From an uncultured Brevundimonas sp. (GTDB lineage: Bacteria; Pseudomonadota; Alphaproteobacteria; Caulobacterales; Caulobacteraceae), in assembly GCF_937863155.1 (NCBI RefSeq), contig NZ_CALMFB010000025.1:1-64000 (forward strand): a DNA stretch of 64,000 bases. The letters are read 5' to 3'. The position numbers were made by a program, and so were the translations under genes. Each line of letters opens with the position of its first letter. Position 1 is the stretch's first letter. Of this stretch, positions 10,249-12,338 are shown one piece after another. The notes beneath the pieces were generated by a model. It had not been told where the DNA came from. It saw only the letters and a program-made list of their open reading frames with translations, and ran no database searches.

Positions 10249-10983
10249 ATGGCCGCAACGCCCAATCCGCTGGTCCTGATCCCCGCCCGCATGGCCGCGA
10301 CGCGCCTGCCGGGCAAGCCGCTGGCCGACATCGGCGGCAAGCCGATGATCGTGCGCGCCTATGAAGCCGCCGCCGCCTCGGGCCTGCCGGTCGCGGTGGC
10401 GGCGGGCGACGCTGAGATCGTCGATGCGGTCCAGGCGGCGGGCGGTCGCGCCGTCCTGACCGATCCGGCCCTGCCCAGCGGTTCGGACCGCATCATGGCG
10501 GCGCTGGAGGCGATCGACCCGGACGGGCGGCACGACGCCGTCATCAATCTGCAGGGCGACATGCCGTTCGCCCCGCCGTCCATCGCGGCCACCTGCGCCC
10601 GGCTGCTGGCCGATCAGCCGTCGTGCGACATCGCCACCCTGGTGGCGGCCGAGGCGGACGCTTCGGATCGGTCAAACCCCGACGTCGTCAAGGCGGTGCT
10701 GGCCCTGGCGCCGGGCGCGGTGACCGGCCGGGCGCTGTATTTCACGCGCTCGACCCTGTACGGCGACGGCCCCGTCTGGCGGCACATAGGCGTCTATGGC
10801 TATCGCCGCGAGGCGCTGAAACGGTTCTGCGCCGCCCCGCCATCGCCGCTGGAGACGCGCGAGAAGCTGGAGCAGCTGCGGGCGCTGGAGATGGGCCTGT
10901 CGATCTGGGGCGCGGTGATCGATGCGGCGCCCCTGTCGGTCGACAATCCGGCCGATCTGGAGGCGGCGCGGGCGCTGGTTTGA
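10249..10983 (+). CDS. kdsB: 3-deoxy-manno-octulosonate cytidylyltransferase (CMP-Kdo synthetase)
   Basis: This enzyme activates Kdo with CTP for lipid A core assembly. The 244-residue length is typical. It starts LIPARMAATRLPGKPL, the nucleotide-binding signature, followed by INLQGDMPFAPP (the QGD motif) and HIGVYGYRREAL near residue 185. The gene has a good ribosome site (AAAGGAG) before the ATG. Its stop is immediately followed by the left arm of the G-rich inverted repeat that flanks the four-helix-bundle gene. It is divergent from the cytochrome c gene. Confidence 0.96.
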   Translation: MAATPNPLVLIPARMAATRLPGKPLADIGGKPMIVRAYEAAAASGLPVAVAAGDAEIVDAVQAAGGRAVLTDPALPSGSDRIMAALEAIDPDGRHDAVINLQGDMPFAPPSIAATCARLLADQPSCDIATLVAAEADASDRSNPDVVKAVLALAPGAVTGRALYFTRSTLYGDGPVWRHIGVYGYRREALKRFCAAPPSPLETREKLEQLRALEMGLSIWGAVIDAAPLSVDNPADLEAARALV

Positions 10984-11016
10984 GGGACTGGGGATTAGGG
11001 ACTAGGGATTAGGGGG
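10984..11016 (+). repeat. Left heptad array (GGGACT/GGGATTA type)
   Basis: The arm reads GGGACTG, GGGATTA, GGGACTA, GGGATTA, then GGGGG. Five G-runs separated by 3-4 bases fit a G-quadruplex motif on the plus strand. It ends about 5 bases before the ATG of the four-helix-bundle gene and so contains its ribosome-binding region. Confidence 0.9.
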
Positions 11017-11020
11017 CGTG

Positions 11021-11386
11021 ATGGGGGTGCAGTCCTACAGGGATCTGACGGTCTGGAAGAAAAGCGTCGATCTGGCCTGTGATATCTACGCGCTGACACG
11101 CCTGATGCCCAAGGAGGAGACTTATCGTCTTTCGGGCCAGATCATTCGCGCGTCCACATCGATCGCTGCCAATATCGCCGAGGGCAACGGGCGCGCGACA
11201 CGTCGCGACTATGCCCATTTCATCAGCATCGCCCGGGGATCGGCGGCGGAGCTGGAAACCTTCCTGATCGTCATCGGCCGACTGAATCTGGCGCCGACCG
11301 ATCACCTGGATGCTCTGCTGAGCCGAACGGAAGAGATCGCACGCATGTTGAACGCCCTACGATCCAAACTCTCCGATCCCACCTAG
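11021..11386 (+). CDS. Four helix bundle protein (23S rRNA intervening-sequence protein family)
   Basis: This protein of 121 residues belongs to the S23 family first seen in intervening sequences of 23S rRNA genes, whose members form pentameric barrels of four-helix bundles and may bind nucleic acid. Diagnostic segments are YRDLTVWKKSVDLACDIY, IIRASTSIAANIAEGNGR (the most conserved part) and the helix around YAHFISIARGSAAELETFL. A GTG three bases earlier is also in frame; the ATG is preferred. No reverse transcriptase is near, so it is not an Avd of a diversity-generating retroelement. The gene is boxed by inverted G-rich heptad repeats and its TAG stop abuts the right arm. Confidence 0.9.
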   Translation: MGVQSYRDLTVWKKSVDLACDIYALTRLMPKEETYRLSGQIIRASTSIAANIAEGNGRATRRDYAHFISIARGSAAELETFLIVIGRLNLAPTDHLDALLSRTEEIARMLNALRSKLSDPT

Positions 11387-11412
11387 CCCCTAGTCCCTAA
11401 TCCCTAGTCCCC
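11387..11412 (-). repeat. Right heptad array, inverted copy
   Basis: Read on the minus strand this is GGGACTA GGGATTA GGGACTA GGGG, the same heptads as the left arm in opposite orientation. It starts directly after the stop codon of the four-helix-bundle gene. On the minus strand it encodes Gly-Thr-Arg-Asp-stop of nudC. It is also G-quadruplex-compatible. Confidence 0.9.
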
Positions 11413-12338
11413 ACTTCGAACCCCTCCACCCAGGCCCGGATCAGGGTGCGAGCGATGGCTACGGGCGGGGGCGGCTTGATGGGATGGGCGCCCGCCAGAC
11501 AGGCGGCGGCCTCGTCGCGGGTCAGCCAGGCGACGGATTCCAGCTCGGTCTGGTCCGGCCGCGCCTGGTCCGAATCGACCGTGCAGATCAGGCCGATCAT
11601 CAGTTGCGACGGAAATGGCCACGGCTGGCTGGAGTGATAGCGCACGGCGGTGACGGTCAGGCCCGCCTCTTCGGCGATCTCGCGGGCGCAGGCCTCTTCG
11701 ATGCTTTCGCCCGGCTCCAGAAAGCCGGCCAGGGCCGACATCCGCCCGGCGGGCCAGGCGGCCTGACGGCCCAGCAGGCAGCGCGGCCCTTCGGGGCCGT
11801 CATGGATGGCCAGCATGATGACCACCGGATCGACGCGCGGGAAATGTTCGGTCCCGCAGGCCTCGCAGGCGCGTTTCCAGCCTCCGGCGGCGTCGCGGGT
11901 AGCCCGGCCGCAGGCGGCGCAGAAGCCATGACGCCGGCGCCAGTCGAACAGGCTCTTGGCCCCGCCCGCCATGGCCGCATCCGGTCCCGACAACATCGCC
12001 GCCGCCGCGCGCATCTCGTGAAAATCGCCCAGGCCCTGAACCGGTCCCTGCGCGGGATCGACCGAACCTTCGATCTCGACCGCGAACACCGGCGCGTCCT
12101 TCCACAGGCCCAGGAAGATCTCCCGGTCCGGGACCAGGTCGCGCGCATGGTCCAGCGGCAGCCACGCCAGGCGCGGGCCTTCGGCGTGATCCTCGATCAG
12201 CGGCCGGCCTTCCCACAGCACCAGGGCCAGGGCCTCGGGATTGGCCTCCTGCTGGGCCAGCCAGTCGGGGTCGCTACGGCGATCGCCGGCGCGGTCCAGC
12301 GGGTTTCCGGCGAAGGTGTTGGTGGCGGTCAGGGTCAT
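11397..12338 (-). CDS. nudC: NAD(+) diphosphatase / NADH pyrophosphatase (Nudix)
   Basis: NudC hydrolyses NAD(H) to NMN(H) and AMP and can remove NAD caps from RNA. The 313-residue sequence has an N-terminal domain, a four-Cys zinc ribbon (FCAACGR and CEACGTEHFP, about residues 145-170) and the Nudix box GFLEPGESIEEACAREIAEE followed by AGL (near residue 210). A downstream SQPWPFPSQLM segment is the NudC-specific SQPWPFPxS signature. The last residues, GTRD, and the TAG stop are encoded by the inverted heptad repeat, so the natural C-terminus may have been altered by insertion. Confidence 0.95.
   Translation of the reverse strand: MTLTATNTFAGNPLDRAGDRRSDPDWLAQQEANPEALALVLWEGRPLIEDHAEGPRLAWLPLDHARDLVPDREIFLGLWKDAPVFAVEIEGSVDPAQGPVQGLGDFHEMRAAAAMLSGPDAAMAGGAKSLFDWRRRHGFCAACGRATRDAAGGWKRACEACGTEHFPRVDPVVIMLAIHDGPEGPRCLLGRQAAWPAGRMSALAGFLEPGESIEEACAREIAEEAGLTVTAVRYHSSQPWPFPSQLMIGLICTVDSDQARPDQTELESVAWLTRDEAAACLAGAHPIKPPPPVAIARTLIRAWVEGFEVGTRD

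Follow-up and report, generated by a model that had tools for sequence, protein, structure and literature searches.

The window analyzed here is a 64,000-nucleotide stretch of DNA from an uncultured Brevundimonas sp. (assembly GCF_937863155.1, contig NZ_CALMFB010000025.1), and the element in question is a 428-bp unit at positions 10984 to 11411, in which a single gene for a four-helix-bundle protein (fhb) is framed by inverted arms of tandem 7-nucleotide words (heptads) (Table 1). The enclosed gene matched the PF05635 profile with 124.5 bits (cut-off, 33.8), its only Pfam match, and the TIGR02436 profile with a score of 122 (cut-off, 24); an alternative start at ATG 11021 would give 121 codons, and the stop codon is TAG 11384 to 11386. 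Both arms are 33 nt long with a consensus of tandem GGGAYTR heptads, and they are 88% complementary to each other, with an internal perfect match of 17 nt. The last codons and the stop of nudC are encoded within the right arm, and the gap between kdsB and nudC is empty in several relatives. An earlier note, made from the letters of this DNA, had described a four-helix-bundle gene between inverted heptad arms, and the profile matches, the complementarity of the arms, and the period-7 flanks found throughout the genus indicate that this unit is real. The same note had called the right arm the exact inverse type of the left; with 88% complementarity, and with the stop codon of fhb falling within the first right-arm heptad, the right arm is inverse in type, but not an exact inverse.

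TABLE 1 Coordinates of the heptad-framed unit and its neighbors in the window
Feature	Position	Strand	Description
Left arm	10984..11016	+	Tandem heptads GGGACTG-GGGATTA-GGGACTA-GGGATTA-GGGGG, abutting the kdsB stop codon
Four-helix-bundle gene fhb (PF05635/TIGR02436)	11018..11386	+	122 codons from GTG 11018
Right arm	11379..11411	-	Inverted heptads overlapping the last codons of fhb and the 3' end of nudC
Left neighbor kdsB	10249..10983	+	Name by reading of the sequence
Right neighbor nudC	11397..12338	-	Convergent; name by reading of the sequence

To place this unit in its genus, 121 Brevundimonas genomes were analyzed, among which PF05635 was found in 64, with up to seven matches per genome (fragmentary matches were left out of the locus analysis). 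At period 7, a flank self-match of at least 0.85 was observed at 59 of 103 loci on the 5' side and at 58 of 103 on the 3' side, compared with 3 of 561 control windows from the same loci; none of the 103 loci reached this value at any other period between 3 and 13, and period 14, the double of 7, did so at 40 (5') and 24 (3') loci. Moreover, the two arms of a locus matched each other in inverted orientation at 89 of 101 loci, two of the 103 having too little flank for this comparison, versus 10.8% of 1,000 swapped pairs, which include some from the same clade; by arm detection, 92 of 101 fhb loci had inverted arms. The words vary by locus and include GGGATTA, GGCAGTA, GGCGAGT, GTGATTA, GGCTAGT, GGGCTTA, GGTGATT, GGTTCGA, GGGGTGT, and GGCAACA, with the G-rich strand on the 5' side in 150 of 151 clear arms. 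At one shared site, the gap between genes read as putative agmatine deiminase and N-carbamoylputrescine amidase (L044, L046, L047, L049, L051, L052, and L056, and L045, L048, and L053), the units carry GGCGAGT or a GTGAGTA-like word, and the start of the downstream protein is seemingly encoded by the right arm.

The boxed gene also occurs in Planctomycetes, Cyanobacteria, Rhizobiales, Firmicutes, and Lysobacteraceae, according to a scan of species genomes (the best 80 of 566 confirmed loci, plus 30 loci from nine of those genomes) and to 29 loci each, part of all matches, from Lysobacteraceae and Nostocaceae, in which fhb was present in 54 of 119 and 55 of 60 genomes, respectively. Across all sets including the genus (269 loci, overlapping), a tandem unit was found in at least one flank at 232 loci, with a unit length of 7 in 350 flanks, 8 in 19, and another length in 5, and inverted arms were detected at 198. 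Arm detection is weaker outside the genus, with inverted arms at 14 of 29 Lysobacteraceae loci (16 of 214 swapped pairs) and 16 of 29 Nostocaceae loci (20 of 214 swapped pairs). Some loci of Rhizobiales, Cyanobacteria, and Hydrogenedentota have octads. At L187, L193, L205, L222, L226, L227, L364, and L369, 8-nt arms surround the same gene family, so unit length varies too. A divergent member from the genome of L184 (Candidatus Hydrogenedentota), L332, has arms of 6- or 12-nt units (GGCATCGCTATC-like). Thirteen of the 29 Lysobacteraceae loci adjoin accC, named by reading its translated ends, nine of them with GGGATTC or GGGAATC arms. Plasmids carry boxed copies as well, including one with the word GGGTGTA in Calothrix brevissima NIES-22, a GGGAGTA-boxed copy between ribonucleotide reductase genes in Nostoc edaphicum, and a GGTGACA-boxed copy between cas6 and cas4 in a type I-D CRISPR (clustered regularly interspaced short palindromic repeats) locus on plasmid pANA02 of Anabaena sp. 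90 (L444). The S23/four-helix-bundle family is listed among genes in cas loci in the part of PMC3936711 consulted, and heptad-boxed inserts like that of Anabaena sp. 90 may be the reason for this listing. Location inside rRNA was considered for loci with weak arms and rejected, as 0 of 20 such loci picked from the best 80 of 566 had an rRNA match.

The earlier note had raised the possibility of recruitment by G-quadruplex (G4) structure, in which case the arms would act as G4s that draw in the mobility machinery. The left arm in the window, with its five G-runs, does fit a motif of four G-tracts (runs of three), and GGGNATC-type oligonucleotides fold as G4s in vitro according to the part of PMC4692102 consulted. 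However, the motif fits 48 of the 151 clear genus arms, which means that it is not a family property, and GGG is lacking in the words GGCGAGT, GTGATTA, and GGCAACA as well as in GCTAGAT and GTAATAA, which are among the AT-rich words of a Ruminococcus genome. G4 formation as a common signal or principle was therefore abandoned as incidental, and recruitment through it appears highly improbable.

The word in the arms follows the protein that they enclose. Clear heptads were available for 84 of the 103 genus loci, 79 of these with both flanks, and among genes with unrelated flanks, the words agreed within one mismatch in 73 of 1,579 pairs at 40 to 50% protein identity, 92 of 210 at 60 to 70%, and 22 of 30 at 70 to 80%; an equally strong correlation arose in 0 of 500 permutations. 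In these comparisons, arm word covaries with protein clade even at unrelated sites; the pattern is strong, but because locus pairs are not independent, it does not amount to formally testing coevolution. In addition, the 121 genomes were scanned for arrays of three words, with fhb types assigned by hand, and arrays of the matching word (counts include the gene's own arms) were present in 10 of 10, 12 of 12, and 10 of 11 genomes carrying a gene of that type, with a further array site in at least 24 of 32 matching genome-type cases among the matches listed. Five of six mismatched combinations of word and gene were without enrichment. In these assignments, one GGGATGA gene (L110) was counted under GGGAYTR, and L062 (word in the right arm only) and L079 (variant right arm) were counted under GGCAGTA; a reversed-pattern control was uninformative because the same arrays satisfy the reversed pattern. 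Gene-less pairs of a given word are enriched in genomes with the matching fhb.

The genome of the window illustrates such pairs. Tandem arrays of at least two GGGAYTR units are found at six sites in the 2.79-Mb draft, each time as an inverted pair in which the G-rich strand comes first (the left arm of the pair at C74 is degenerate); the window pair alone holds the gene, and PF05635 matched once in the draft. As RNA, the whole window unit folds with a z score of -5.2, and the five gene-less pairs fold with z scores of -4.4 to -7.6. One of these pairs lies upstream of rppH, a site that was compared in the 30 closest of 117 matching genomes. A heptad hairpin was present there in 23 of the 30 relatives, with eight word types by one-mismatch clustering (which merges, e.g., GGCAGTA with GGCAGCA), and the remaining relatives had a bare stop/start overlap (four) or a short hairpin-free gap (three). 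Left and right words were within one mismatch of each other in 20 of the 23 hairpins, versus 79 of 506 between-hairpin comparisons. Some hairpins of different word types (L415, L420, L429, and L439) have the sequence CGACCTG in common within their cores, so the arms seem to be rewritten jointly and faster than the cores.

Such agreement of words within a hairpin, together with shifts of type between species and cores common to several types, would fit a mutational by-product, in which tandem slippage and quasi-palindrome correction homogenize the arms and the word does not depend on the protein. We nevertheless consider this origin quite unlikely, as heptad flanks are associated with the gene rather than with control windows (3 of 561), related proteins have words in common at unrelated sites, and arrays are enriched by gene type. 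TRAP is an RNA-binding regulator that recognizes repeated triplets, and the fhb product might likewise bind heptads in its own and other transcripts, the arms then being regulatory or processing hairpins and not mobile ends. The arms indeed flank the gene within the transcript of fhb itself, nearly always with the G-rich arm first, the gene-less pairs are intergenic and fold strongly as RNA, and the covariation of word and protein fits equally well. Regulation of this kind is rather unlikely in our view, given that a gap bare in four relatives and filled by hairpins of eight word types in 23 of 30 would be odd for a conserved regulon and that gene and arms occur jointly at unrelated sites.

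The site of the window unit itself was followed through 79 kdsB-nudC loci, of which 71 were parsed after removal of seven without a neighbor and of one genome present twice (L089 and L261). Fifteen gaps were no longer than 20 bp, 10 held the unit, and 46 held other sequence; because nine gene-bearing loci had been added on purpose, these counts are not frequencies. Gene-less heptad pairs of other words were found in the gaps of L252, L262, and L276. The gene lies in opposite orientation in 7 of the 10 gaps with a unit, and the protein tree places the sense copy L112 as sister to two antisense copies, which indicates that the core has probably flipped between the arms, an expected outcome of recombination between inverted repeats of this kind. 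A different palindromic, gene-less insert occupies the gaps of L242, L245, L251, L255, L263, L264, L267, and L269, with inverted arms resembling 9-mers (CACAACGAA) within an outer hairpin. The earlier note had named, as the outcome that would speak against a mobile unit, a gene present at this site in all relatives and arms absent around other copies. Neither holds, since some relatives have an empty site and other copies of fhb, in the genus and in several phyla, are flanked by heptad arms. The note had also proposed to examine whether arm sequence covaries with protein clade, and it does.

Traces of movement were sought among nearly identical copies. Seven such fhb copies, without heptads, occur in one cyanobacterium (G265), and six of them have in common ∼1 kb of upstream sequence that reads like the end of a transposase gene, suggesting that they are passengers of an insertion sequence (IS). 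The same genome holds a divergent fhb in a long repeat (L402 and L403; hundreds of base pairs alike on both sides) with CCCTCC-type repeats downstream. Two copies in another cyanobacterium (G300) have flanks that are identical except for a single base across 104 bp on the upstream side and 83 bp on the downstream side, with outer terminal repeats beyond the heptads and 8- to 9-bp duplications, read by eye, and appear to represent a unit resembling a miniature inverted-repeat transposable element (MITE) that encloses gene and arms. Moreover, a plasmid copy in Nostoc sp. HK-01 stands directly after an IS204/IS1001-type transposase gene. All of this would suit a gene and arms that do not take part in movement but travel as passengers within conventional IS or MITEs whose ends were later lost. 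That explanation is unlikely, however, since the heptads persist inside the MITE-like unit of G300, no outer repeats or flanking duplication were seen by eye beyond the window arms in the sequence read there, and both the 7-nt period and the word-protein covariation would be left unexplained. Identical copies were rejected as proof of self-mobility because they are carried in IS or MITE-like units, and the Calothrix NIES-22 plasmid pair was dropped because the plasmids also have neighboring genes in common. For carriage by phages, no match was found in 50,697 phage records.

Taken together, we put at about even the chance that the fhb protein recognizes its own heptad and helps arm-bounded hairpins to spread, the window unit being one fhb gene between such arms. 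The case for self-mobility of the heptad unit comes from its distribution, the empty sites, and the joint occurrence of gene and word at unrelated sites. The protein, probably a ring-forming nucleic acid binder like Avd, would bind single-stranded heptads in RNA or DNA, and the folded hairpin itself would be copied, by reverse transcriptase or host replication because the unit encodes no nuclease or polymerase; gene-less pairs would be the nonautonomous form. The sites examined are of two kinds, stop/start junctions and convergent gene ends. Unit number was unusable as ring evidence because the arm detector does not register arms of fewer than four units, and a ring of five was set aside, having as its basis only the five chains each in 2gsc and 2rld and the title of a paper on the Xcc0516 structure. 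Several observations weigh against a spreading role. Similar genus cores (≥75% over ≥250 nt) had common flanks in 95 of 110 alignments, so inheritance is mostly vertical; among copies with traceable ends, no recent one was seen to end in heptads, those of G265 and G300 having moved in an IS or a MITE-like unit; arm rewriting at one site could be mutational; and shared ancestry makes the pair counts nonindependent. Furthermore, arrays occur without the matching gene in 22 of 111, 14 of 109, and 31 of 110 remaining genomes, and GGGAYTR arrays are also common among genomes of the GGCAGTA type (8 of 12 versus 24 of 109). A broader proposal, which we advance tentatively and hold to be distinctly less probable, is a class of transposase-free replicators in which each fhb protein forms a ring reading one 7-nt (sometimes 8-nt) word per subunit and copies hairpins bounded by that word, protein and word coevolving, with the 23S rRNA intervening sequences (IVS) and the heptamers of Xanthomonas and Nostoc as members. 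Recognition by self-word would tie together three puzzles, namely, the role of S23/four-helix-bundle proteins, the origin of the 23S rRNA IVS, and heptamer-crowded genomes, and makes the code-like, testable prediction that each fhb protein should bind its cognate heptad but not the heptad of a different clade.

Among known repeats, heptameric G-rich arrays were described as GGGAATC in Xanthomonas and GGGGAYT in Nostoc, with 70 and 75 convergent pairs in two Xanthomonas genomes (Rehm et al. 2015, PMC4692102); that paper leaves their function open and contains none of the terms four helix, S23, and intervening. They equal the fhb arms in unit length, and GGGAATC is also found in fhb arms among the 29 Lysobacteraceae loci. 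No paper linking tandem heptads with the S23/fhb family was found in the open-access literature (subscription journals and preprints lay outside the search). The link to 23S rRNA IVS drawn by the earlier note holds for architecture and protein family. As in those insertions, an open reading frame of the same family is looped between terminal inverted repeats, and the IVS of Coxiella burnetii, with its S23 reading frame, measures 428 nt and is closed by a terminal stem of 28 bp (PMC4990558, consulted in part), compared with 428 bp and 33-nt arms in the window. In contrast, the window unit is not an IVS, because it lies outside rRNA, between two protein-coding genes, and its arms consist of tandem heptads, which the consulted part of PMC4990558 does not mention for the IVS. 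As for Avd of diversity-generating retroelements, its four-helix fold has a counterpart in the window protein.

Repetitive extragenic palindromic (REP) doublets forming hairpins (REPINs) and REP-associated tyrosine transposases (RAYTs) combine a gene that is largely inherited vertically and has inverted repeats on either side with dispersed, short, gene-less pairs, and RAYT transposases are thought to help REPINs spread. The window unit does not belong to the RAYT systems, because it holds no Y1 (HUH) transposase, its enclosed gene matching PF05635 only, and its arms are heptad arrays. Like REPIN/RAYT, however, it has a gene of mostly vertical descent and inverted-repeat flanks, and the rest of its genome carries gene-less pairs of that repeat. 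By analogy, the best fit would be a REPIN/RAYT-like division of labor without a transposase, architecturally close to the 23S rRNA IVS.
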